A DNA stretch of 50,269 nt, taken from IMG/VR virus record IMGVR_UViG_3300020158_000005, positions 64,001-114,269 of that record. One strand, written 5' to 3'. The position numbers were made by a program, and so were the translations under genes. The notes under the pieces are model-generated. The model did no database searches. It worked only from the letters and a program-made list of their open reading frames with translations, and was not told the DNA's origin. Below, in pieces: positions 3,942-50,269 of this stretch; position 1 is the stretch's first letter; each line of letters starts with the position of its first letter. Source of the stretch: a virus.

Positions 3942-6179
3942 ATGTCATATTTCACACAAGTTAGTTATTCAGATACAGGTTCTTTAGATGCGTTCTCAAG
4001 ATTAAGAACATCTAATCCTGAAACTTTATTTGCTGTTCAATCTCAATATGATACCAATCCTATAGAGATGGAAGGAGGATTTATAGGTACAGGAACTGCT
4101 GCTCCAACTTATAGCACTTCTACAAGAATGGTTGCATTGACAGCTACTGCTGGTACAGGAAGTGTATTTTATCAATCCTATCAATATAGTTCATATCAAC
4201 CAGGTAAAGCATTAAAACATGGAGAACCTGTTTTAACTGTTAATGGGTGGGTTAACATTGAAGATATAAAACTTGGAGATACTATCTTTGATGGACTAGG
4301 TAAAGAAACTAAAGTTATAGGTGTTTTTCCACAAGGAGAAAGAAAAATCTATAGAATCACTTTTGATGATGGTACTCATGTAGATTGTGATGGAGAACAT
4401 CTTTGGAAAACCATTGTAAGATGGGAAGGTAAAGCAGGTCAAGAAAGAGTATTAACTACTAATCAAATGTTAGACGAACATGGGGAAGTATCATCATCTT
4501 ATAACAGATGGAGAATACCTGCATCACCAGTACTTGAAATAACTGAAAAACCTGTTCCTATAGATGCTTATACATTAGGTGCTATTTTAGGAGATGGCAG
4601 TATAGATAAAAAATCTAGTTTTGTTCAATTTACTACAGCAGATTTAGAGATACTTTCTTATTTAAAGTGTGATATTAGTAAGTACGAGGCTAAGTATCAA
4701 TATGGGTTATTAGGTTTAGCAGAAAGTATTAGAACTTTAAAATTAGATAATACTAATTTTTTAACTAAATTTGTTCCTAACGAATATTTATATAACTCAA
4801 AAGAGATTAGATTAGCAATTTTACAGGGACTGATGGATACAGATGGTACTGTAGATAAAGTAGATGGCACTACTGAATACAACTCAGCCAGTAAACAATT
4901 AGCGGAAGATGTTGCATTTTTAGTTCGTTCATTAGGTGGGCAAGCAAAAATAAAAATAAAAGAAGCTAGTTATAAGAATGAAGATGGGGATAAGGTTAAA
5001 TGTTCTGACAGTTATAGAGTAAGAGTAATAATGCCTATTTGTCCATTTAAACTAGAGAGAAAATCATTCTATTGGAAGCCTAGAACTAGAATTTCTTTTG
5101 ATAGATATATTCATTCTATTAAAGAGCTTGGGGATTACCAAGCAACTTGTATAAGAGTAGAATCAGAAGACCATACATTCTTAACTAGAAATAATATAGT
5201 TACTCACAATAGTCAATTTATAGCTTTAACAGGTGTAGTAGGTACAGGTGTTGCAGGAGCTGTAGTTGATTATGGATATGGTGATAGTTTGAATGGTATA
5301 TTTTTAAGACAAAGTGGAACTACTATGCAAGTAGTACAAAGAAGTAATACTTCAGGAGCTGTAGTAGAAACAGTTATATCTCAATCTGCTTGGAATTTAG
5401 ATAAAATGGATGGTACAGGTAACTCAGGAATCACTTTTGATGTTACAAAAGCATTTATTCTTATAATGGATTTACAATTCCTTGGAATGGGTAGAGTAAG
5501 ATTTGGATTTGATATAAATGGAGTAGTATATTATTTTCATCAAATATTTAATGCTAACGTACTTGCTGTACCTTATATGCAACAAGCTACACTTCCTATC
5601 AGTGTTACCTTGACTACTACTGCTACTATAGCTACTAAAACATGTTATTTTAAATGTGCTACAGTACAGTCTGAAGGTGGTAGTTTACAAAACTTTGGGT
5701 ATAACTTTGCTACCCCTGAAGGAACTGTAACTGCAGGTAATGGAGCTAGAACATCTTTATTAGCTCTTAGACCATTAACAACATTTAATGGAATTCCTAA
5801 TAGGTCTCAAATTATTCTTGGAAATCTAGCAATAGCTGTTACAGGAACATCTCCTATATTCTGGGAATTATGTACAGGTGCTGTTTATACAGTAGCTCCT
5901 ACATTTGCTAGTGTAAATGCTGCTAACTCTTCTACACAATATGGTACAGGTGGAACATTTGGTAATTTAACAACAGGTCAGGTAATAGCTTCAGGATATG
6001 TAACAGGTTCAGGAGCAGGAGCAGCAGGAGTATCAAGTCCTACTATTTCACTACATAATCCAATTGCTCTTAATAGAGCAGGTGCTGTAACAGCTTTAGG
6101 TACACTTAGTTTACTTGTATCAGGAATAGGAGGTAATAGTGCAACTAGAGCATCATTTAACTTTGCAGAAATACGTTGA
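3942..6179 (+). CDS. Virion structural protein interrupted by an intein
   Basis: The 745-aa precursor has three parts: an N-extein (residues 1-89), an intein (90-423) and a C-extein (424-745). Joining the exteins restores SYQPGK-SQFIALTG, a junction that resembles a family of beta-rich phage virion proteins with a conserved YQxGKSQ motif followed by W-N-x-D-K-x-D-G and G-x-GRVRFGF. Those last two motifs are also present here. The mature protein would be about 411 aa. Its neighbours are fibres on the same strand, so a tail or baseplate-adjacent structural role is likely. The extein family assignment is from memory of motif pattern, not a search. Confidence 0.7.
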   Translation: MSYFTQVSYSDTGSLDAFSRLRTSNPETLFAVQSQYDTNPIEMEGGFIGTGTAAPTYSTSTRMVALTATAGTGSVFYQSYQYSSYQPGKALKHGEPVLTVNGWVNIEDIKLGDTIFDGLGKETKVIGVFPQGERKIYRITFDDGTHVDCDGEHLWKTIVRWEGKAGQERVLTTNQMLDEHGEVSSSYNRWRIPASPVLEITEKPVPIDAYTLGAILGDGSIDKKSSFVQFTTADLEILSYLKCDISKYEAKYQYGLLGLAESIRTLKLDNTNFLTKFVPNEYLYNSKEIRLAILQGLMDTDGTVDKVDGTTEYNSASKQLAEDVAFLVRSLGGQAKIKIKEASYKNEDGDKVKCSDSYRVRVIMPICPFKLERKSFYWKPRTRISFDRYIHSIKELGDYQATCIRVESEDHTFLTRNNIVTHNSQFIALTGVVGTGVAGAVVDYGYGDSLNGIFLRQSGTTMQVVQRSNTSGAVVETVISQSAWNLDKMDGTGNSGITFDVTKAFILIMDLQFLGMGRVRFGFDINGVVYYFHQIFNANVLAVPYMQQATLPISVTLTTTATIATKTCYFKCATVQSEGGSLQNFGYNFATPEGTVTAGNGARTSLLALRPLTTFNGIPNRSQIILGNLAIAVTGTSPIFWELCTGAVYTVAPTFASVNAANSSTQYGTGGTFGNLTTGQVIASGYVTGSGAGAAGVSSPTISLHNPIALNRAGAVTALGTLSLLVSGIGGNSATRASFNFAEIR
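4209..5210 (+). mobile_element. Intein with LAGLIDADG endonuclease domain (Ala1 type)
   Basis: This intein covers residues 90-423 of the structural protein. The splicing block A starts at Ala-Leu-Lys-His-Gly-Glu-Pro-Val, so the first residue is Ala rather than Cys or Ser. Block B is visible as DGTHVDCDGEHLW. Two dodecapeptide endonuclease motifs are present: LGAILGDGS (about residue 210) and LAILQGLMDTDG (about 289). The end reads HTFLTRNNIVTHN followed by Ser+1, a canonical His-Asn/Ser C-junction. Ala1 inteins are known to splice by direct attack of the +1 nucleophile on the N-junction. The endonuclease motifs keep their acidic residues, so it may be active. Confidence 0.88.
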
Positions 6180-14459: not shown

Positions 14460-14825
14460 TTATATTTGTTCAGATAAGCTGTCCCCCTGTTTTATGTTAC
14501 TTCTTTTATCCATTTCCCTTGCGAAATCTATCCACTCTTGATATTTATCTGGTATTATACCATTATGTCTATTCGAGTGACAATCCCCACACACAAGAAG
14601 AATATTCCAAGTTTTAAAAGCTATATCTTTACGATGAGCTTTTTCTATTAAATGGTCCCAATAGATGGTTTTATTTTCCCCTACAAGGGGTGTGTCGCAT
14701 ATAAGACACCTTCTATTTTTAGGTTCTATCCTATCCCATAAACTTTGGAACCATTCGTGTAACTCTCTTGTGAATTCTTTTTTAGCTTGTAACCTCACCC
14801 CTGAGCTTTTTCTTTTTGTAAGCAT
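14460..14825 (-). CDS. HNH-like endonuclease
   Basis: Two CxxC knuckles frame the nuclease core: CLICDTPL at about residue 40 and CGDCHSNRHNG at about 79. Between them lies the catalytic-type DHLIEKAHRKD (Asp-His). Asn and His of the third motif are in WNILLVC and HSNRH. The protein is 121 aa. Its start lies inside the preceding gene by 44 bases and its stop touches the tad2 start. It could process phage DNA (recombination, packaging) or be a degenerate homing nuclease. There are no NUMOD repeats to support the latter. Confidence 0.7.
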   Translation of the reverse strand: MLTKRKSSGVRLQAKKEFTRELHEWFQSLWDRIEPKNRRCLICDTPLVGENKTIYWDHLIEKAHRKDIAFKTWNILLVCGDCHSNRHNGIIPDKYQEWIDFAREMDKRSNIKQGDSLSEQI

Positions 14826-18268: not shown

Positions 18269-21200
18269 TTATAATCTATCCTGAATTGAACAAGAATTTC
18301 CACTGCAGGCAATGGAAGCATAATCGCTAACATCTTTATATTCAGGCTTAGTAAGAATCTTTGAAAGGTCTACTTCTTTAAATTGTTTATCAATGGTTTC
18401 CCATTTATGCAGAATATGCACATCTTTTAAACAATATACCATATTATCTATGTTATTCTTAAAATAGTTCTTAGCAAATTTCTTAGCTCTATCAATCCAA
18501 TATTTCTTCAATAACACTTGTTCTCTTGTTCCTGCAATAGGTTCCGTTTTGTCCTTTACAGATTTACAAGCTTGCCAAAGATTACCATTAAAATAATGTA
18601 ACCCATCTACAATAAGTCCCGAAGCAAATAAAGCTCCTGTACCATATTTAGCAATAATTTCTTCTAATGTAACTAGTTCTGTTAGGGGGGCTTGATTCCA
18701 CTCTCTACTACCAAAGTCACTTAAGAAAGAAATAGCTGTAAAAGCATCTTTATTATCCCAAATATAGTCAGCACATTTTTCCTTATCTCCTTCTCCTAAC
18801 ACTACTGTACAGGATACATTATGATTAATACCTCTATATCCACATAATTCAGGAACAGTTCCTGGCATTACCCAGTTTTCTTGTACTAATTTAATGTATT
18901 CTAGATGTTTTACACCCAGTACATCTTTCTTTAATAAGGCATCTTTATTATTCGCTACAGGAACATATACAACATAATCAGTTTTACTGTCACTATGTAC
19001 ACTTTCCTCTATCATATAAGGTCTATTTTCGGCTAACCACTTAGCTACGGTGTTTTCTTTGTTAATTTGCATCACTCTAAAATAGTTTCTAGCTTCTTCA
19101 GCAGAAATACCACCTACAGTCATAGCAATAACACTAGAATTACCTCCAGGTTTAACACAAGTAGTACGAGCAGCTTGATTGATTCCTATCATATCAGCTA
19201 CTATTTTGTTCGTATTCACTACTAATGCAGCACCTTCTCTTAGCCATTCTGGGTTAAATAGCTTAGGATTATTCATCCAACCTATTACAGAAATTCCTAA
19301 TAAAGCTTCTTTCTCAAAGATTTTTTCACTCACCTCTCCTAAATAAGGGAAAGACGTATAACCTGCTTGACAAGTTCCTAATATAGCAGAATGAACACAA
19401 GCTTTCAAAAATAACTCTTTTGTAGTACATTTTTCAGCTACAATTTCATTTAAATTACATTGCTTAGTTAAAACATTATTAAATACTCCTTGGTGTAATT
19501 CTGTTTCTTCAAAACAATATGAGTTATGTAAACCTGGGAGTAACTCTATAGTATCTATAATTTGTACTTTTCCTTTTTTAGTTGGTTCTTCTTTTGATAA
19601 CTCTCCTTTTGAACACCATAGCTCGGAACAGTCTGAAATTTGTAAATACCATATATCTTTATTTCTAATAGCATAGTTAGTTTTTACTCCTTTTTCTTGC
19701 ATTAAATTAACAGAAGAATCTATCCCTATTTTTGTTAGCAACAACTGGCAATCTCTAATTTTACTTTCTTCCCCATAAATTCTCAGCTTGCCATTATAAG
19801 TAATTGTACCGTCAGTATCTACCCACCCAGCAATAAAATTAATAATACTCTGTTTATTCCAAGTAAACACTTTAGATGGTAAACCTTCTTCATATTTTAA
19901 AGAAACCGAAAAATCTCTATCTAATTTATCAAAAGTTACATTATAATAATCTCCTGATTTTGTGGTGTTTAACACTTCACTTTTTTTACCACATATAAAA
20001 GGGAAGTCTAAATGAAAATTAGATTTATAAACAGAGGCAAAAGGTAGTCTTGATTTACCATTTTGATAATTTCTACACGTACCGTCACCTAATAGAAAAC
20101 CATAATCGTAAGCATATTCTTCTAAGACACCATCAGTATATATAATATTAGATTTAGGTACTGAAACTTTATATTTTTCAGTATTATTCAATAATTCAGA
20201 TAGTTTTAACTCTCTGTAGTTTTCTTCAAATCTATTTTTAACCAAAAACTTATGATTTTCTGTACAATCAAGATAGGACCCATCTGAAAAACCCACTCTA
20301 TATAGATTTCTATTAACACCTGTTAATACAGGCTTAACTTTTGACCATTTAACCCCATTCCAAATCTCTATTTCTTCCTTATTTTCCGCAACTTCTCCAA
20401 TAACTCTAATTCCATCTCTAGTTATAAGTTTTGTGTTATATTCAACACATCCCTGTACTCCAAATAAATCTTCATTAACCTTTGTAAACTCTTGAATATC
20501 ATCATAATGTATTTTACTTAAATCCCCATCATAAAGAATAGGTAGTTTACTAATTTCAAAACAAGGATTGAACATATCAAACCAAGAGTTAGCAAATACG
20601 AATCCAATATCATTTTGTCCACCATTTAGATTTACAAGATAATCAAACTGTTCTTTTGTTACTAAATTACGTATTAATATAACGCTATTATTGGTTCTTT
20701 CTCTTTGTTTGTTTTCAGAATACCAATTCCCTGTTTTAGCTAATATCATTTCCTCGTCATTAGGGTCTACGATGAAATCCAAAGCAGCTCTTCTCACGCC
20801 ACCACTAAGTACAGCATTAGACAAATGGCAAATAACATCTCCAACTACAATAGGTCTTAATTCATTTCCTTCTGTAATCATCCAATTATCTAACACTTGC
20901 TCTATTTTTTCAAGAGCATTTTTAAGGGGTTCATAACCAGGGGCTTTAAATCCCCCAGAGATAAATGTACCTTTTTCACGTATACCGCTACCATCGAACT
21001 TAATCTTATACCCTGTATATTCAGGAAAAGGGGCTTTATCTACAAAATAAGAAGACATTAATACACCTGCTGCATCTGCCCATCCTTCAATACTATCTTC
21101 AATTACAAATGTTTTTGTACCTAATAATCTAGGCTGAATCTTTGAAATATTCTTAACAAAAGGAATTAATAAACCTACACCTACTCCACAACCATTTAAA

Positions 21201-21523
21201 GCTAGATAGAACACTTCTTGAAAAACTCTGTTTCTTGAAGCATGCGTAGAAGTACAATTGTACATCCTAAGATTACTCCTTTCTATTTGTTTATATCTAT
21301 ACTGTAAATTCCTTTGTGAAGCTAAAATAAGCATATCACCTAAAGAGTCTTCTACTTCGTTTAGTAATACATTTAATTCTTCATTTTGATACTTTATTCT
21401 ATGCCCATTAATAATGTCCTTAGAAGCATCTTTCCATGTTTCATACCTACCTTCATCCATCCATTTAAAATAATCTGAATGTAATTTTAGGTCAGATAGA
21501 AACTTTTTTCCTTTGTTTGTCAT
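18269..21523 (-). CDS. nrdJ: Class II (B12-dependent) ribonucleotide reductase with intein
   Basis: Without the intein (residues 359-688) the enzyme is 754 aa, close to the monomeric Lactobacillus leichmannii enzyme. Visible catalytic residues are Cys90 (RMYNC, first redox Cys), Cys321 in FNPCFEI (thiyl-radical Cys and Glu), Cys689 in CNLNEI (second redox Cys) and the C-terminal pair CSGNSC (1073/1078) that re-reduces the site. It converts ribonucleotides to deoxyribonucleotides using adenosylcobalamin and needs no oxygen. A consensus promoter lies 36 bases upstream and a terminator follows, so it is a single-gene unit. No cobalamin riboswitch fits in the short leader. Whether it prefers di- or triphosphates cannot be read here. 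Confidence 0.93.
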   Translation of the reverse strand: MTNKGKKFLSDLKLHSDYFKWMDEGRYETWKDASKDIINGHRIKYQNEELNVLLNEVEDSLGDMLILASQRNLQYRYKQIERSNLRMYNCTSTHASRNRVFQEVFYLALNGCGVGVGLLIPFVKNISKIQPRLLGTKTFVIEDSIEGWADAAGVLMSSYFVDKAPFPEYTGYKIKFDGSGIREKGTFISGGFKAPGYEPLKNALEKIEQVLDNWMITEGNELRPIVVGDVICHLSNAVLSGGVRRAALDFIVDPNDEEMILAKTGNWYSENKQRERTNNSVILIRNLVTKEQFDYLVNLNGGQNDIGFVFANSWFDMFNPCFEISKLPILYDGDLSKIHYDDIQEFTKVNEDLFGVQGCVEYNTKLITRDGIRVIGEVAENKEEIEIWNGVKWSKVKPVLTGVNRNLYRVGFSDGSYLDCTENHKFLVKNRFEENYRELKLSELLNNTEKYKVSVPKSNIIYTDGVLEEYAYDYGFLLGDGTCRNYQNGKSRLPFASVYKSNFHLDFPFICGKKSEVLNTTKSGDYYNVTFDKLDRDFSVSLKYEEGLPSKVFTWNKQSIINFIAGWVDTDGTITYNGKLRIYGEESKIRDCQLLLTKIGIDSSVNLMQEKGVKTNYAIRNKDIWYLQISDCSELWCSKGELSKEEPTKKGKVQIIDTIELLPGLHNSYCFEETELHQGVFNNVLTKQCNLNEIVAEKCTTKELFLKACVHSAILGTCQAGYTSFPYLGEVSEKIFEKEALLGISVIGWMNNPKLFNPEWLREGAALVVNTNKIVADMIGINQAARTTCVKPGGNSSVIAMTVGGISAEEARNYFRVMQINKENTVAKWLAENRPYMIEESVHSDSKTDYVVYVPVANNKDALLKKDVLGVKHLEYIKLVQENWVMPGTVPELCGYRGINHNVSCTVVLGEGDKEKCADYIWDNKDAFTAISFLSDFGSREWNQAPLTELVTLEEIIAKYGTGALFASGLIVDGLHYFNGNLWQACKSVKDKTEPIAGTREQVLLKKYWIDRAKKFAKNYFKNNIDNMVYCLKDVHILHKWETIDKQFKEVDLSKILTKPEYKDVSDYASIACSGNSCSIQDRL
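19460..20449 (-). mobile_element. Intein in ribonucleotide reductase, Gln C-terminus
   Basis: The intein covers residues 359-688. Block A is CVEYNTKLITRDG, block B contains FSDGSYLDCTENHKF, and endonuclease motifs are YGFLLGDGTC and FIAGWVDTDGT. The C-terminal part reads SYCFEETELHQGVFNNVLTKQ followed by Cys+1. The last residue is Gln, not Asn, and the penultimate is Lys, not His. Gln-terminated inteins are known. The +1 Cys is also a catalytic Cys of the host enzyme, so only a spliced product should be active. Confidence 0.85.
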
Positions 21524-21608: not shown

Positions 21609-21788
21609 TTAATCTTTCTTGTTTAAGAATCTATAATAAGTTAATTCTGCTTCTATCTCCATAGCAAAATTTTTTAACAAATTCTCCACATCTCGTATCA
21701 ATATCATACCACAATCTTCACATTGTCCCTCTTTAAAAGGGAGTTCTTTCTCCTTTATTTTAGTAAGATATTTAGTTAACGTTGTCAT
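21609..21788 (-). CDS. Small CxxC protein (59 aa)
   Basis: The frame from ATG 21788 overlaps the preceding stop as ATGA. The protein has one CEDC pair (GQCEDCGM, residues ~21-26) and a helical acidic end. One CxxC pair is half a zinc site, so it may bind metal as a dimer. No family recognised. Confidence 0.5.
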   Translation of the reverse strand: MTTLTKYLTKIKEKELPFKEGQCEDCGMILIRDVENLLKNFAMEIEAELTYYRFLNKKD

Positions 21789-22597
21789 ATTAATTCTTTT
21801 AAACTATGAATCCTCTTATAGCCAACATCATAACGTTCATTATGCGGAGTGTCATATAGGAAACAACATATTCCTGCAGCATTAAGAGCTTTAAAATTAT
21901 CAAAACTATCATCTACAAAAATATCAATTCCAGCTTGTTTAGCTACATCCACTTTAGATTGTCCCACACCTACACAAAATACAGGTTTTGTAGGAAAACC
22001 ATTATCATCCAACCATTTAGTAGTAGTTACTACTGTACATGGTCGACTAGTAATGTAACAAGCAGGTTCAAATGGAATATCTTCTGCACTAATTAAAGGT
22101 TTTAATCCTGCATAAAAACTTTCCAAAATTCCTTTTTCCTTCATATCAACAAATCTCTGCACAATCTCCCTATCGAAGAACCATGATGTAGGGGCATCTT
22201 TAATATCGTAAAGCTCTCTCCAACCTCCTAACCAGTCACATAACACTTCATCAATATCTAATCCAATTTTAGGTCTTTGTAAATATCCATGAGCTCTGTC
22301 GTCTCCTTGAGGATAGATTTTGTAATAGGCTGTAAGAAAATGTGCATTACAAGCTAAATGAGCAGCATGCAATTCTCCTGTTTCTCCATCATAATCTTCC
22401 CCTTTTTTAATAGCAGCTAAATGTCTTTCTAATGATGAAATAACATTGCTCCATTTCATACCTAATTCCCAGTTTCTTTCAGCATACTTTTGAGCCCCTT
22501 TAGTAAGTATTTTTACCATTTCTTCATGTGCATAAGGATGCACTAAATCATAACGTAATTTTCCTTCGTTAAAACGAAGTCCTCCTCCTTGTTCCAT
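21785..22597 (-). CDS. Fused dNTP pyrophosphohydrolase (DUF5664-like) and HAD phosphatase
   Basis: Residues 1-~100 (GLRFNEGKLRYDLVHP, then GAQKYAERNW, SLERHLAAI, DGETGELHAAHLACNAHFL) match the DUF5664 family annotated as dATP/dGTP diphosphohydrolase N-terminal domain, all-alpha like MazG. Residues ~110-270 are a HAD nucleotidase: DIDEVLCDW (nucleophile Asp114, Asp116), ITSRP (Thr183), a Lys at 215/220 and FVDDSFDN (229-230). Together they could take a dNTP to dNMP and then to the nucleoside. The fusion is seen directly. Substrates are inferred from family knowledge. Confidence 0.75.
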   Translation of the reverse strand: MEQGGGLRFNEGKLRYDLVHPYAHEEMVKILTKGAQKYAERNWELGMKWSNVISSLERHLAAIKKGEDYDGETGELHAAHLACNAHFLTAYYKIYPQGDDRAHGYLQRPKIGLDIDEVLCDWLGGWRELYDIKDAPTSWFFDREIVQRFVDMKEKGILESFYAGLKPLISAEDIPFEPACYITSRPCTVVTTTKWLDDNGFPTKPVFCVGVGQSKVDVAKQAGIDIFVDDSFDNFKALNAAGICCFLYDTPHNERYDVGYKRIHSLKELI

Positions 22598-22941: not shown

Positions 22942-23616
22942 TTATAAATTTATAATGTTACCATTGTTAATAACCCCTTTATCGAATCTTCCATCTTCTA
23001 CTAACGAACCATTACTAAAAATAGTGTCTAATCCAGATAATGTCATAGTTCCTTGATTAATACAGTCTTTAAAGCGATGAATATGCCCAAAGCACACTAA
23101 CTTATGTGTGCTATTCATACAATGTTTTAAAAGACTTCTATCCCCACATTGCTCAAAATCATTATTTCTATTCTGAGTTAGGTCAAGTATACCTAATGGA
23201 GGACCATGACTGATAAGAATATCAGTAGTAGGTTCAACCATTTCCCATATTTCGTTCATCTTAGCTCTATTCTTATTAAATGCCCATCCTTCACCAAAAG
23301 AGGGTGTAATTGGAGTACCAAAGATACGAAATCCTTCTATTTCAGTGTAATCATTTTCTAGATAAGTTATTCCAACACTATGAAAATCAGAAGGAGTTAC
23401 TCTTCTTCTTTCGATAGCTAGGTCATGATTCCCAGCCGTAGCTAGCTTATGCTTTATTGGTAGAGAACCCATCCATTCTATAAAATCCCTACATTCTTTT
23501 TCACTTTGAATTAAATCCCTAGGATTTGACATATCTCCTGAGAATATAACCATATCCACTTCAGGAACTTTAAGTTGTTTGTGGAAAGTATGCGTCACGT
23601 ATCCGAGATATGCCAT
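22942..23616 (-). CDS. Metallophosphoesterase, N-terminal motif out of frame
   Basis: Calcineurin-type motifs are present: FSGDMSN, AGNHDLAIERR, ILISHGPPLG and CFGHIHR. The open frame starts at 23616 with MAYLGYVTHTFHK, which lacks the first metal motif D-x-H. That motif is encoded just upstream in another frame: a 21-codon frame from ATG 23660 reads SLTIWHISDT and stops at TGA (23597-23595). Removing five bases (or hopping over them) would give HISDTHTFHK. The gene is therefore broken by a 5-base insertion, or is recoded. An annotation from 23616 alone would describe an enzyme without its first metal ligands. Confidence 0.75.
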   Translation of the reverse strand: MAYLGYVTHTFHKQLKVPEVDMVIFSGDMSNPRDLIQSEKECRDFIEWMGSLPIKHKLATAGNHDLAIERRRVTPSDFHSVGITYLENDYTEIEGFRIFGTPITPSFGEGWAFNKNRAKMNEIWEMVEPTTDILISHGPPLGILDLTQNRNNDFEQCGDRSLLKHCMNSTHKLVCFGHIHRFKDCINQGTMTLSGLDTIFSNGSLVEDGRFDKGVINNGNIINL

Positions 23617-23660
23617 ATGGTTAATGACTTATCTCGGATATTATTTTTTAAATTTATCAT
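23595..23660 (-). other. 5' end of the phosphoesterase, with possible recoding site
   Basis: This 21-codon frame encodes MINLKNNIRDKSLTIWHISDT and overlaps the end of the GIY-YIG gene. The last codon ACG (23600-23598) is followed by TGA, and a second ACG starts five bases downstream (23595), leading directly into CAT ACT TTC of the main frame. An 11-bp inverted repeat (arms 23640-23630 and 23610-23600) lies immediately before. Identical take-off and landing codons, a stop and a hairpin are also features of the T4 gene 60 bypass. A simple mutation or assembly error would look similar. Confidence 0.5.
23600..23640. repeat. 11-bp inverted repeat at the phosphoesterase start
   Basis: TATCCGAGATA and TATCTCGGATA are perfect inverted arms with 19 bases between them. 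In RNA they would form a hairpin whose 3' arm ends at the ACG before the TGA. Confidence 0.8.
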
Positions 23661-27356: not shown

Positions 27357-27529
27357 AGACTAATATTTTTATCAATTTTATTAAGGCAATATTGCTTTAA
27401 TTGTTCCCCTAAAGTAATAAGTCCTACACCTATAATACCATTAATCTCCACTATATTATCAATTACATCAGCTAGCGTGAACTTTTCCTCTAGAATCAGC
27501 TTCTTTAGCTCTTCTTTTTCCAGTTTCAT
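27353..27529 (-). CDS. Unknown 58-aa protein
   Basis: A frame from ATG 27529, starting MKLEKEELKKLILEEKFTLA, with an Ile/Gly-rich hydrophobic middle (IVEINGIIGVGLITLG). It overlaps the 3' end of the HNH gene by 62 bases in another frame and the next gene by four. It might be a small membrane-associated peptide. Confidence 0.42.
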   Translation of the reverse strand: MKLEKEELKKLILEEKFTLADVIDNIVEINGIIGVGLITLGEQLKQYCLNKIDKNISL

Positions 27530-27968
27530 TTTTATCTATTTTACTTTTATTGTCATGGCAATTGTCACACAACACTTGTAATCCATTTTCTTCACAAAAT
27601 AATCTTTCTACAAACCCTGGTAGGTCTGCAAAACTATTTAAACTCCCTGCTGGGATAATGTGGTCTACAGAAACTTGCTTATCAGGGAAATAGTTTTTAC
27701 AAATATTACACTGAAATTCAACACGTTGTCTTTTGTTTGGACCTACATACACTCGTTTGGCTTTATTCTTACAAGATTGTATAGGTTTCCATACAATAGT
27801 GCGTCTTCTTAAGCTACTACGAATAAAACTGAAGAAAGCAGAGGTAGACATTGTTCCGTTATTATACGGTTTGTCTACCAATGACTTCCTTACAGCCTTC
27901 TTTCCCTTAGGTTTTACTCCTGAGACATCACTTATTTCTTGTTTGTTTTTTGGTCTTTTCTTCCTCAT
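27468..27968 (-). CDS. HNH endonuclease (166 aa)
   Basis: A basic N-terminal region (RKKRPKNKQ...) precedes a zinc-stabilised HNH core: CNICKNYFPDKQVSVDHIIPAGSL, then FVERLFCEENGLQVLCDNCHDNKSK. Both CxxC knuckles, Asp-His and the final His are intact. This form, with FVERLFCEENGLQVLC, is typical of phage-encoded HNH nucleases near replication genes rather than of NUMOD-containing homing enzymes. It lies directly downstream of the DNA polymerase. Confidence 0.8.
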   Translation of the reverse strand: MRKKRPKNKQEISDVSGVKPKGKKAVRKSLVDKPYNNGTMSTSAFFSFIRSSLRRRTIVWKPIQSCKNKAKRVYVGPNKRQRVEFQCNICKNYFPDKQVSVDHIIPAGSLNSFADLPGFVERLFCEENGLQVLCDNCHDNKSKIDKNETGKRRAKEADSRGKVHAS

Positions 27969-32979: not shown

Positions 32980-33621
32980 ATGAAGAGACCTTTTCAAGGA
33001 AATATTAGATATTTCCAAAATTGTGATACCCCTATTAAAGCTTATTTTCTTGGTTTTATAGCTGCAGATGGTTGTCTATTAAGTAATGGAAAAAATTCCA
33101 TTTCTCTTTCAATAACATTATCTGAAGTAGATAGAAATCTTTTAAACAAGTTAAAAGAAGAAATAGGTTGTGAACATAGAATTTATAATATAAGAGGTAA
33201 AATGACACATAATAAAGACAAAGAAAAATATCATTGTCGTTTTCAATTGTGTAATAAACTACTTATTTCAGATTTAATGAGTTATGGATTCACAGAACGT
33301 AAATCTATAACTATGCCTAATATACTACAAAATATACCTAAAGAATTTAGAGATTCTTTTATTTTGGGATATTTTGATGGAGATGGTAGTATTTCTTACA
33401 ATATAGCAAGTAAACAACATGTTATCTCTTTTCGAGGAACAGAAGAATTTCTACAAAGTTTTGTAGAAACACTTCAGTTTGAAAAGTATAGGTTAATTAA
33501 AGATAAACAAAAGAATTGCTTTACTCTAACTGCTTGGCGTAAATCTGATATTCAAAAATTCAAACAAATATATAATAATAAAGAATTTTATTTAACTAGA
33601 AAATTTATTAAATTTCCTTAA
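32980..33621 (+). CDS. LAGLIDADG homing endonuclease inside the intron (antisense)
   Basis: The 213-aa protein has two LAGLIDADG motifs: IKAYFLGFIAADGCLL (~residues 17-32) and FILGYFDGDGSISY (~126-139), both with the metal-binding Asp. It is a single-chain homing enzyme that would cut the uninterrupted JAB gene and promote intron spread. It is the only rightward gene in the 14.2-50.3 kb block and has its own promoter. Intron-borne endonucleases are usually on the sense strand, so the orientation is unusual. Confidence 0.88.
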   Translation: MKRPFQGNIRYFQNCDTPIKAYFLGFIAADGCLLSNGKNSISLSITLSEVDRNLLNKLKEEIGCEHRIYNIRGKMTHNKDKEKYHCRFQLCNKLLISDLMSYGFTERKSITMPNILQNIPKEFRDSFILGYFDGDGSISYNIASKQHVISFRGTEEFLQSFVETLQFEKYRLIKDKQKNCFTLTAWRKSDIQKFKQIYNNKEFYLTRKFIKFP

Positions 33622-45379: not shown

Positions 45380-45712
45380 TTATTTTATATTTGTTAAAGG
45401 ATAAGAGTTGATAATAGATGATGCAGAAATAACTACTGTATCACTACCACATTCATATTCATCTAATAAGTCTTTATGGTCTGTATATTCTTCACTATTA
45501 ATAACTAGAAGTTTAGCTGAATCTTTAGCAGCTTCTAATGCAGCTTGTACATGTAGTTTAGCAAACTCTATCATTGCTTCTTTACAATCTGAGAAGTTGA
45601 TAACTACTTCTCCTTCTGTATCAGAATGAGCTACAAACCATGTAGCAAATCCTCTATCATTTATGTGTTCTTGTGCTGTAGGTAAATGTCCATCCTTTGT
45701 ATGTTTTTCCAT
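45380..45712 (-). CDS. Phage protein with N-terminus altered by an HNH insertion (110 aa)
   Basis: The C-terminal ~70 residues (CKEAMIEFAKLHVQAALEAA, ending IINSYPLTNIK) belong to a type common in Bacteroidota phages and prophages. The first ~18 codons coincide with the 3' end of the HNH gene in another frame. The intact-type start IPTAE is found upstream of the HNH gene as a 12-codon remnant (MNIPTAEFDNIK, 46190-46152). The present start is thus probably supplied by the inserted element. Confidence 0.6.
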   Translation of the reverse strand: MEKHTKDGHLPTAQEHINDRGFATWFVAHSDTEGEVVINFSDCKEAMIEFAKLHVQAALEAAKDSAKLLVINSEEYTDHKDLLDEYECGSDTVVISASSIINSYPLTNIK

Positions 45713-46136
45713 TATATCTTCTTTTTAAAAATGCAATTATGTTTGATTTATGTAAATTTAAACCTTCAGCAGCCAGTCTTATTGAGTCAAAAGATAATAC
45801 TTGTTCTTCTTTTGTACATATAATCGGCTTACATACTTTTTTAGTTCGTTGTTTATCTTTCATATCCTTGGTAAAGGACTTACCAAAGAAATTATTTTTA
45901 TCCCCTATTTGTGATAGAGATATTTTTTCACTTCTTTCTTTGGTAAAGTCATATTTAACATGACAAGAACGACATAATTCTGTAAAACACGTTATGTCTT
46001 TACTATACTCACAACCTTGTAATAAAGCCCAATCATATACTTTTGCTGTAGTTGTACCGCAGTGTGAGCATATATTCTTTTTTGGGTAGTTTTCTCTTAG
46101 CCATTTATGCAAGGCACTATATTCTTTTTTATTCAT
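45657..46136 (-). CDS. HNH homing endonuclease with NUMOD modules
   Basis: The nuclease part has ICSHCGTTTAKVYDW, LCRSCHVKYD (zinc knuckles) and Lys/Arg-rich linker SQIGDKNNFFGKSF (NUMOD3-like). A NUMOD1-like helix-turn-helix follows: VLSFDSIRLAAEGLNLHKSNI, ending RYNGKTYKGWTFTY. I chose ATG 46136 because a consensus promoter ends five bases before it. An ATG five codons upstream (46151) would overlap that promoter. The element is bounded by 11-bp direct repeats. Confidence 0.85.
   Translation of the reverse strand: MNKKEYSALHKWLRENYPKKNICSHCGTTTAKVYDWALLQGCEYSKDITCFTELCRSCHVKYDFTKERSEKISLSQIGDKNNFFGKSFTKDMKDKQRTKKVCKPIICTKEEQVLSFDSIRLAAEGLNLHKSNIIAFLKRRYNGKTYKGWTFTYSTRTHK
45674..45684. repeat. 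Direct repeat flanking the HNH element (right copy in transcription order)
   Basis: TGCTGTAGGTA (plus strand), identical to 46176-46186. It lies inside the overlap of the HNH gene end and the 110-aa gene start. Confidence 0.75.
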
Positions 46137-46140
46137 AATA

Positions 46141-46171
46141 CAAAAATACAATAACTACTTAATATTATCAA
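46141..46171 (-). promoter_or_regulatory. Promoter of the HNH homing gene
   Basis: Minus-strand TTG (46171-46169), 20 bases and TATTTTTG (46148-46141) match TTG-N20-TAnnTTTG. The ATG at 46136 follows after four bases, so the message would be leaderless. Confidence 0.7.
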
Positions 46172-49243: not shown

Positions 49244-49260
49244 AATAATAAATTTTTAGA

Positions 49261-49332
49261 TTCCCCAGTAGGACTCGAACCTACAACCTCTTGAATACAA
49301 TTCAAGGCTCTACCAATTAGAGCTATGGGGAA
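49261..49332 (-). tRNA. tRNA-Thr (anticodon UGU), slightly atypical
   Basis: A cloverleaf can be drawn on the minus strand: acceptor TTCCCCA / TGGGGAA, D-arm GCTC / GAGC, anticodon stem CTTGA / TCAAG with loop ATTGTAT (anticodon TGT), T-arm GTAGG / CCTAC with loop TTCGAGT. The base usually at position 26 is missing, and loop bases A32-T38 could extend the stem. CCA is not encoded. It would read ACA, a codon favoured by this AT-rich, Thr-rich phage. Confidence 0.8.
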
Positions 49333-49339
49333 AACGATT

Positions 49340-49708
49340 TTAAGCTTGTTCTACTTCTGCTGTCAGAGCTTCTAATTCAGATTCCAAGAATGCAATTTTT
49401 GCATTATGTATTTCTAAATCTTGTTCAGCTTTTGTTACAGCATTTTTAGCATCTAACAATGCACGTACATAAGCATCTCTATTAGTAATAGGTTGTCCAT
49501 TATTAATACGTGCTTCAGCTTGACGTTCTTGTGCTTCTGTCACTGCATCTTCTTTAGCAATAACATCCCCTTTAAGAGAATTTACTTGTGTGCGAATTGC
49601 ACTGTCTGCTTGTCTGAATGCTTTTTCAGCTTTAGCTGTTGCATCATCACCTTGGATTTTAGCCACAAAACTCTTTACGAAACTCTTAACTAATTGACTA
49701 TTGTTCAT
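49340..49708 (-). CDS. Coiled-coil protein (122 aa)
   Basis: Apart from the first ~20 residues (MNNSQLVKSFVKSFVAKIQG) the protein is one long Ala/Glu/Gln heptad region, typical of a dimeric or trimeric coiled coil. It has no other motif. The upstream homing gene ends inside its first codons (11-base overlap). Confidence 0.5.
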   Translation of the reverse strand: MNNSQLVKSFVKSFVAKIQGDDATAKAEKAFRQADSAIRTQVNSLKGDVIAKEDAVTEAQERQAEARINNGQPITNRDAYVRALLDAKNAVTKAEQDLEIHNAKIAFLESELEALTAEVEQA

Positions 49709-50269
49709 GTTTTTGATTTTTAATTTTTAAAATTGGTTTGTTTTTACTTTCTTTTTGAATACGACTTCTTAAAGTTTGTTCTTTTAAATTATAAAATTTT
49801 GCAGCTTCTCTAATACTAGAGAACTCTTGTTTTGTTTCTATATCTATTACAGCTTTTGCATTAGGAGCAACTTTACCATACATATGATTCTTCTTACCTT
49901 TTTGATTTTCAGAAAATTCTGGTTTTTTAATACCCCAAAAAGGATGTTTCTCTCCAGTTATTTGGGGGTACTTCTTACCTTTATTCCATGAAGTATGCCC
50001 TTTTTGTGAATTGGACATTTTTTCTAATGTTTCTTTAGAACACGTACCTGTTTTTCCTTTATTCCAAGATTTACCATACTTTCTTCCTGTAAATGCTTTA
50101 GACATATTTTCTCTAGTTTGTGTAGAAAATACTCCTTTTTTAGAATTTGTTTTAGTTAAAATACAATTTAATCCTTTTTCAGTTACTTCATAAAATTCTT
50201 GCCAGTATCTTTCTCTATCATTTAATAGTTCAATAGAACATTCTTCTACTATTTCAAATATATGGTTAG
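49698..50269 (-). CDS. GIY-YIG homing endonuclease with NUMOD3/NUMOD1, start outside window
   Basis: The frame is open to the right window edge, adding about 54 residues before the ATG at 50105. That part (IELLNDRERYWQEFYEV, then GLNCILTKTNSKKG) is the end of a GIY-YIG nuclease with its catalytic Glu. Next come at least four NUMOD3 repeats (SWNKGKTG, SWNKGKKYP, HPFWGIKK, NHMYGK) and a NUMOD1-type helix-turn-helix (IREAAKFYNLKEQTLRSRI). The gene is thus 3' complete and 5' truncated by the window. Confidence 0.85.
   Translation of the reverse strand, partial: NHIFEIVEECSIELLNDRERYWQEFYEVTEKGLNCILTKTNSKKGVFSTQTRENMSKAFTGRKYGKSWNKGKTGTCSKETLEKMSNSQKGHTSWNKGKKYPQITGEKHPFWGIKKPEFSENQKGKKNHMYGKVAPNAKAVIDIETKQEFSSIREAAKFYNLKEQTLRSRIQKESKNKPILKIKNQKHEQ

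Follow-up and report, generated by a model that had tools for sequence, protein, structure and literature searches.

How could a ribosome make one protein from a gene whose metal-binding residues lie in two reading frames, with a stop codon between them? The question is raised by a calcineurin-like metallophosphoesterase (MPE) gene in the 50,269 nucleotides of viral DNA analyzed here (the window), which form part of a 114,269-base virus record (IMGVR_UViG_3300020158_000005, positions 64,001 to 114,269). The protein relatives of the window are those of Flavobacterium and Cellulophaga phages; the host is therefore probably a Bacteroidota bacterium, an inference drawn from these relatives.

A gene parted by five bases

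On the minus strand, a homing endonuclease gene (HEG) of the T5orf172/GIY-YIG type is followed by the MPE gene (Table 1). The HEG product is 49-53% identical to those encoded at the same position in two other phage loci, L095 and L145. The minus strand reads CAT ATC TCG GAT ACG, then TGACG, then CAT ACT TTC CAC: five bases stand between GAT ACG, which encode Asp and Thr of an active-site D-T-H motif, and CAT, which encodes its His. The MPE of Flavobacterium phage elemo begins MSLKKNKSLVIWHISDTHTYHDLLKVP; in the window, MINLKNNIRDKSLTIWHISDT runs into TGA, and HTFHKQLKVP continues in a different frame. The MINLKNNIRDKSLTIWHISDT frame matches the MPE start of a Flavobacterium phage, KSLVIWHISDTHTYH. 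A mechanical gene-finder would begin the MPE at the ATG of the MAYLGYVTHTFH frame, and at other loci start codons in this frame are absent or different.

Table 1. Coordinates of the interrupted MPE locus in the window
Feature	Position	Strand	Evidence and remarks
HEG, GIY-YIG superfamily, T5orf172 domain, 292 aa	23641-24519	-	Pfam PF10544, 20.7 bits, above cut-off; PHROG 681 endonuclease, E 5e-29
MPE replacement N-terminal frame, 21 codons MINLKNNIRDKSLTIWHISDT up to the stop	23598-23660	-	Sequence; ATG at 23660 lies within the last HEG codons
RNA hairpin	23600-23640	-	11-bp lower stem (23640-23630 with 23610-23600), A.A mismatch, 5-bp upper stem
Take-off codon ACG (Thr), closing HISDT	23600-23598	-	Sequence
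Five extra bases, TGACG	23593-23597	-	TGA stop (23597-23595) overlaps landing codon ACG (23595-23593)
MPE body HTFHKQLKVPEVDMVIFSGD, restarting at CAT (His) 23592 as HTFHKQ	22942-23592	-	PF00149, 39.9 bits; GNHD, HGPP and GHIH motifs intact
MPE ORF as a mechanical gene-finder would call it (MAYLGYVTHTFH...)	22942-23616	-	Start not conserved among relatives

The insertion, the replacement start, the stop, the gap and the hairpin are all shown by sequence. A sequence-only reading of this locus had already placed HISDT and THTFHK in different frames, with ACG followed by TGA and a second ACG five bases on, and all of this held. So did its 11-bp inverted repeat ending at the take-off codon, which is a perfect, strongly folding stem of a design shared by all ten loci described below. 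The neighboring GIY-YIG gene that it named is there in the window and is dispensable elsewhere: half of the loci have lost the HEG but keep the hop site. What that reading overlooked is the in-frame ATG at 23660, the cassette's own replacement gene start.

The same layout in ten phages

Is this layout peculiar to one assembly? A single-protein scan of viral sequences gave no match, and alignment queries were required; homologs were collected by protein-alignment scans of IMG/VR together with pattern scans. Interrupted loci number ten, the window and nine others from IMG/VR (L014, L022, L079, L095, L145, L172, L244, L247 and L248), all of them metagenome assemblies. In each, the metal-binding D-T and H are separated by exactly five bases of the form TRACN (TAACT at six loci, TGACG and TAACC at two each). 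A stop codon, TAA or TGA, lies directly 3' of the Thr codon in all ten; a second Thr codon (ACN) always follows five nucleotides onward, and an in-frame ATG is found 20-22 codons before the stop (L022 has an additional in-frame ATG farther upstream). The take-off codon is ACG at six loci and ACT at four, the wobble base of the landing ACN varies (G, T or C), and the two codons are identical at only four loci (the window, L145, L244 and L248), agreeing at two of three bases in the other six. By eye, the 20-22-residue N-termini share no motif beyond H-x-S-D-T.

By contrast, about 90 distinct uninterrupted homologs all have D-[T/S]-H in frame, with neither the extra five bases nor the hairpin, and in a structure match, MPPED2, the metal ligands are likewise exactly D-[T/S]-H. 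These homologs support the earlier suggestion that a short hop would rebuild D-T-H exactly; the hop is inferred from the DNA, and no protein has been observed.

Several simpler readings were rejected. Sequencing error in the window is ruled out by the same arrangement of five nucleotides, stop, hairpin and ACN at nine other independent loci. UGA recoding fails because readthrough of TGA would remain in the wrong frame and other loci use TAA. Pattern matches at L099, L245, L249 and L251, as well as all ten in bacterial and archaeal genomes, lack an MPE context and were set aside as chance.

A hairpin at a fixed distance from the stop

In the window, the 11-bp repeat extends with its 3' arm as far as the first base of the take-off ACG. 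The folding energy of the 57-nt region is -20.8 kcal/mol (z -5.9), and none of 200 shuffled sequences is as stable. At all ten loci a hairpin adjoins the take-off codon: its lower stem (8-11 bp) is separated by a short break from its upper stem (5-8 bp), which ends 11 nt upstream of the take-off codon at nine loci, the window included, and 10 nt upstream at one. Folding energies range from -19.9 to -28.2 kcal/mol across the ten, against a mean of -2.5 kcal/mol (sd 1.8) for the same stretch in 88 uninterrupted homologs.

The upper stems differ in sequence and are similar in length. In the lower stem, 92% of alignment cells are paired versus a shuffled mean of 86.4% (2 of 500 shuffles as high); compensatory changes on both sides occupy seven cells, where shuffles average 2.7 and 1 of 500 reaches as many, and sliding the stem partners lowers pairing to 54% or less. 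None of these three comparisons is corrected for the relatedness of the rows. When a covariance model was built from seven of the hairpins, these seven scored 59-69 bits, and no other match in 345 kb exceeded 18 bits.

The downstream gene is under selection

Is the part of the gene beyond the gap still alive? The full-length downstream ORFs stay open for 217-227 codons, and the GD, GNHD, HGPP and GHxH motifs are intact at the loci checked. Measured pairwise against the nearest uninterrupted homologs, dN/dS is 0.06-0.13, which is also what most uninterrupted pairs show, with the caveat that part of this divergence predates the insertion; when an ORF like that of L079 is simulated with 0.28 neutral substitutions per site, 0.2% of runs leave it open. 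Ordinary purifying selection on the downstream ORFs, at HEG-less loci too, is thereby shown. The exception is L247, in which the ORF breaks within a few codons of the resume site, through assembly error or decay. The window MPE itself sits on a long tree branch (0.91).

The sequence-only reading had named what would refute it: raw reads without the five bases, or the lack of a full-length protein together with decay elsewhere in the gene. For most loci these objections fail: all ten have the five bases and, with the exception of L247, the downstream gene shows no decay.

Insertion, spread, loss and probable healing of the cassette

Complete cassettes are seen in L095 and L014, where the HEG splits the MPE gene, with the old start upstream of the HEG and a recoded start after it. 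In L095, the original start, ATGAAGATACTTCATATATCAGACACACACAGT, lies upstream of the HEG, and the recoded start that follows the HEG ends in hairpin, stop and gap; L014 is organized in the same way, and its break falls precisely between T and H. At its other end, the L095 contig (IMGVR_UViG_3300046787_000302, a 130-kb record) carries an uninterrupted MPE allele, L114. The two have identical flanks: 116 nt to the left of an insert of about 985 nt, and 92 nt to its right, where the contig ends. L095 and L114 are probably two alleles in one sample, in which either the population is mixed or homing is still under way; an artefact of assembly remains possible. In the replacement starts, a polar-hydrophobic-[W/L]-H-[I/L/F]-S-D-T β-strand is retained with differing codons.

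An intact HEG is found in the window, L014 and L095; the L145 copy runs as far as the contig edge, and L244 keeps only a fragment. None was found beside the MPE in L022, L079, L172, L247 and L248. These five HEG-less loci still keep the hop site, and their gene start resembles the stretch in which endonuclease tail and MPE overlap. Neither in these five nor in the window did the available upstream sequence reveal the old gene start.

On a tree of 100 MPE sequences, the six hop carriers included need six changes and are scattered like random labels; the hop therefore moves, and its spread is shown rather than inferred. L145 is partnered with the uninterrupted L153, and L079 with L114 and L115. 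Some copies seem to have been repaired: L076 has an L244-like N-terminal extension that runs straight into D-T-H without a gap, and both L076 and L039 combine the extension and the 5' arm with an in-frame D-T-H. They are probably healed copies.

Bypassing and its rivals

What would let a ribosome cross the gap? For T4 gene 60, reviews list matched take-off and landing codons, a stop directly behind the first of them, a take-off stem-loop, a second stem-loop on the 5' side and a signal in the nascent peptide (PMC5009743). In their account, the 5' stem-loop probably has its top already paired outside the exit channel and pulls the mRNA as it is completed; refolding of this stem-loop is a published driver of T4 bypassing (PMC5009743, PMC11194080). 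The T4 gap has been proposed to protect against the endonuclease (PMC5009743, PMC3014915).

The MPE loci are probably best explained by a mobile HEG cassette that protects itself with a five-nucleotide gap, which the ribosome crosses by programmed bypassing; bypassing is inferred from sequence, without protein, ribosome-profiling or reporter data. In this model, the cassette interrupts the MPE at the active-site D-T-H codons and brings a replacement 5' end: a new ATG overlaps the last HEG codons, about 21 codons re-encode the lost β-strand (..[W/L]H[I/L/F]SDT), and the hairpin, the stop codon and five nucleotides beyond the frame follow them. The stop in the A site would stall the ribosome with peptidyl-tRNA-Thr on ACG or ACT, while the upper stem would sit at the mRNA exit, 10-11 nt upstream. 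Completion of the 8-11-bp lower stem would then pull the mRNA until the tRNA re-pairs with the ACN five nucleotides on, and translation would restart at His to give an uninterrupted D-T-H. The five-nucleotide length of the hop and the hairpin's part as motor are inferred, not shown. The gap and the recoded codons would stop the endonuclease from cleaving the copy that carries it; such immunity is the likely advantage, because a reconstituted gene would otherwise recreate the endonuclease target, which recoding and gap would break. The sequence-only reading had noted that bypass elements can protect against cleavage; immunity likewise stays an inference and is not shown.

Several points tell against bypassing: take-off and landing codons match fully in less than half of the loci, the gap is too short to hold a take-off stem-loop, a T4-like nascent-peptide motif is not evident, the L247 ORF is broken, the window MPE has its long branch, all hop loci come from metagenome assemblies, and a -1 or +2 shift reaches the same frame with one or two extra residues. 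The last is the core of the rival to be taken most seriously, programmed frameshifting at the stop-proximal Thr codon, either -1 (giving D-T-V/L-T-H) or +2 (giving D-T-T-H), with hairpin and stop as stimulators. Both shifts do enter the downstream frame, and the wobble drift of ACN among G, T and C is what would be expected of a codon that is decoded, not re-paired. We nevertheless consider frameshifting unlikely: the uninterrupted homologs and MPPED2 are without exception D-[T/S]-H and extra residues would part two metal ligands, there is no heptameric slippery sequence, and the hairpin lies upstream, a position favoring forward movement. Still harder to sustain is the view that the MPE is dead or dispensable, with hairpin and gap as debris of HEG insertion and only a 20-22-residue peptide made. 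It can point to the broken ORF of L247 and to the long branch of the window, but the other full-length ORFs have stayed open where only 0.2% of neutral (L079-like) runs do, dN/dS is low, hairpin geometry is constant, and the β-strand residues of the replacement starts are kept by different codons.

The two remaining rivals can be all but discarded. Internal initiation in the downstream frame would yield an MPE without its first strand and metal-binding Asp, leaving the hairpin as a translation regulator; a downstream-frame ATG does exist in the window (at 23616), and TTG in L014 and L022, but in L079, L095 and L145 the downstream frame offers none of ATG, GTG and TTG ahead of the His codon. 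An internal start is therefore not conserved, and the conserved upstream frame of 20-22 codons would be left without purpose. Removal of the gap or of the whole insert from the RNA, as an intron or a very short excision, would be consistent with L095 and L014, where loss of the whole insert would leave the old 5' part correctly joined to the MPE body; against it, the insert is almost all HEG ORF, and the old start was not found at six loci in the upstream sequence at hand. Neither the window nor L095 matches any Rfam intron family, and Pfam scans of the HEG and MPE found no Hint or intein family; lacking a splicing core and a Hint match, group I or II introns and inteins were rejected.

A dedicated hop tRNA was also considered. 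The sole tRNA gene found in the 114-kb record is a tRNA-Thr(UGU) (window 49259-49332, minus strand), specific for the amino acid of the hop codons, and the L022 phage has the same tRNA among many, a match to the hop amino acid that is probably coincidence. The idea was rejected: this tRNA occurs in the window and L022 only and was not found in the other hop phages examined.

Returning to the bypassing model, a bolder reading, which we hold more likely than not, is that these loci form a class of mobile bypass cassettes of their own. Each would be an HEG element that replaces the N-terminal end of a gene and owes its self-immunity to a five-nucleotide out-of-frame gap, crossed by a minimal hop driven by a fixed-distance 5' hairpin and a stop, and spread horizontally among phages that probably infect Bacteroidota. 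Its stages would be visible as loci with the HEG intact, with an HEG remnant, with the HEG lost and the hop kept, and with the gap healed.

Comparison with known systems

The likeness to T4 gene 60 claimed by the sequence-only reading (matched codons, stop, hairpin, homing gene) is supported, except that the codons are identical in only four of ten loci. In T4 gene 60/mobA, which has a 50-nt bypass, an HEG is likewise inserted in a gene, the downstream part has its own start and a non-coding gap lies near that start; the stop directly after the take-off codon, the 5' stem-loop and the idea of the gap as protection are also shared. As in a gene 60-type element, a conserved protein is divided between two reading frames of one mRNA. 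There are also differences: the gap is 50 nt in T4 and 5 nt in the MPE cassette, which has no take-off stem-loop; the MPE N-terminus is short (20-22 aa), without a KKYK-like motif; take-off and landing codons often match at only two of three bases; the HEG is HNH in T4 and GIY-YIG/T5orf172 here; the T4 protein stays split, whereas the lost MPE end is rebuilt; and T4 has one locus against ten. The MPE element would work like T4 gene 60/mobA, with bypassing inferred from sequence, but we do not file it as a gene 60-type member because its gap holds no stem-loop.

Fungal mitochondrial mobile ORFs (mORFs; Allomyces atp6 and Glomus atp6/atp9/cox2/nad3) also consist of an endonuclease cassette that brings a diverged duplicate gene end and leaves the native end beside it (PMC3630166). 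An HEG inside the gene with the old end kept beside it is seen in L095 and L014. The fungal replacement is C-terminal and in phase, however, while the MPE replacement is N-terminal and, at all ten loci, out of phase by 5 nt and a stop; an in-phase end is seen only in L076 and L039. The byp elements of Magnusiomyces capitatus mitochondria differ in another way: they are crossed by mitochondrial ribosomes at 81 sites, reportedly independent of mRNA context, while the MPE hop concerns one gene and bacterial ribosomes, with a conserved hairpin and a stop codon. Bypassing by short hops has been proposed in bacteria and phage for the Prevotella loescheii adhesin and the Streptomyces phage Hau3 terminase; these cases are unconfirmed or were not followed up, and no homing cassette is mentioned (PMC5009743).

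The MPE family has been invaded from the other side as well. In the cultured Flavobacterium phage vB_FspP_elemoA_7-9A (MT497017; L003:2453-3725), the MPE has a diverged replacement C-terminus, followed by an HNH gene and then by the old last 11 codons (KLSSNGNIFEI). As in the MPE cassette, an HEG comes with a replacement end; here, in contrast, the replacement is C-terminal and in frame, the nuclease is HNH, and bypassing is not needed. Across different phages, homing cassettes have struck the MPE gene at its start and at its end. In the literature searched, which left out most subscription papers, we found no N-terminal replacement combined with an out-of-frame 5-nt hop across ten natural alleles.

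Other homing-type genes in the window

The window is unusually rich in free-standing homing-type genes. Those recognized by eye (HNH, LAGLIDADG-like and NUMOD-like) lie at 14460-14825, 27468-27968, 32980-33621, 45657-46151 and 49698-50105; only one of the five was scanned, 27468-27968, which gave an HNH match below cut-offs. An HNH-like ORF (45380-46151, minus strand) shares 56 nt with the start of the next gene, recalling the overlap of endonuclease tail and MPE; the covariance model finds no hop hairpin there, and the next gene has no homolog in the phage collection. A ribonucleotide reductase ORF (18269-21523, minus strand) contains an intein-like LAGLIDADG insert with its reading frame uninterrupted, and a structural-type protein (3942-6179, plus strand) has an apparent Hint/intein insert, judged from its translation only. 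The ORF at 21785-22597 (minus strand) fuses a dATP/dGTP diphosphohydrolase-type domain to a 5'-nucleotidase-type domain; its product is 62-65% identical to proteins of Cellulophaga phages phi38:1, phi40:1 and Calle and of a Leptolyngbya phage.

What the MPE alleles mean

Phage HEG cassettes rewrite the start of the gene that they invade, and mechanical gene calls at such sites give the wrong protein start. Reviews reportedly treat T4 gene 60 as essentially the sole well-studied bypass outside mitochondria, and the rules of bypassing have therefore not been open to comparison. With ten natural alleles of a much smaller element, and with relatives that are uninterrupted or healed, it would become possible to test what hopping minimally requires. 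The same MPE alleles would also test the idea that gaps arise as homing-element immunity.
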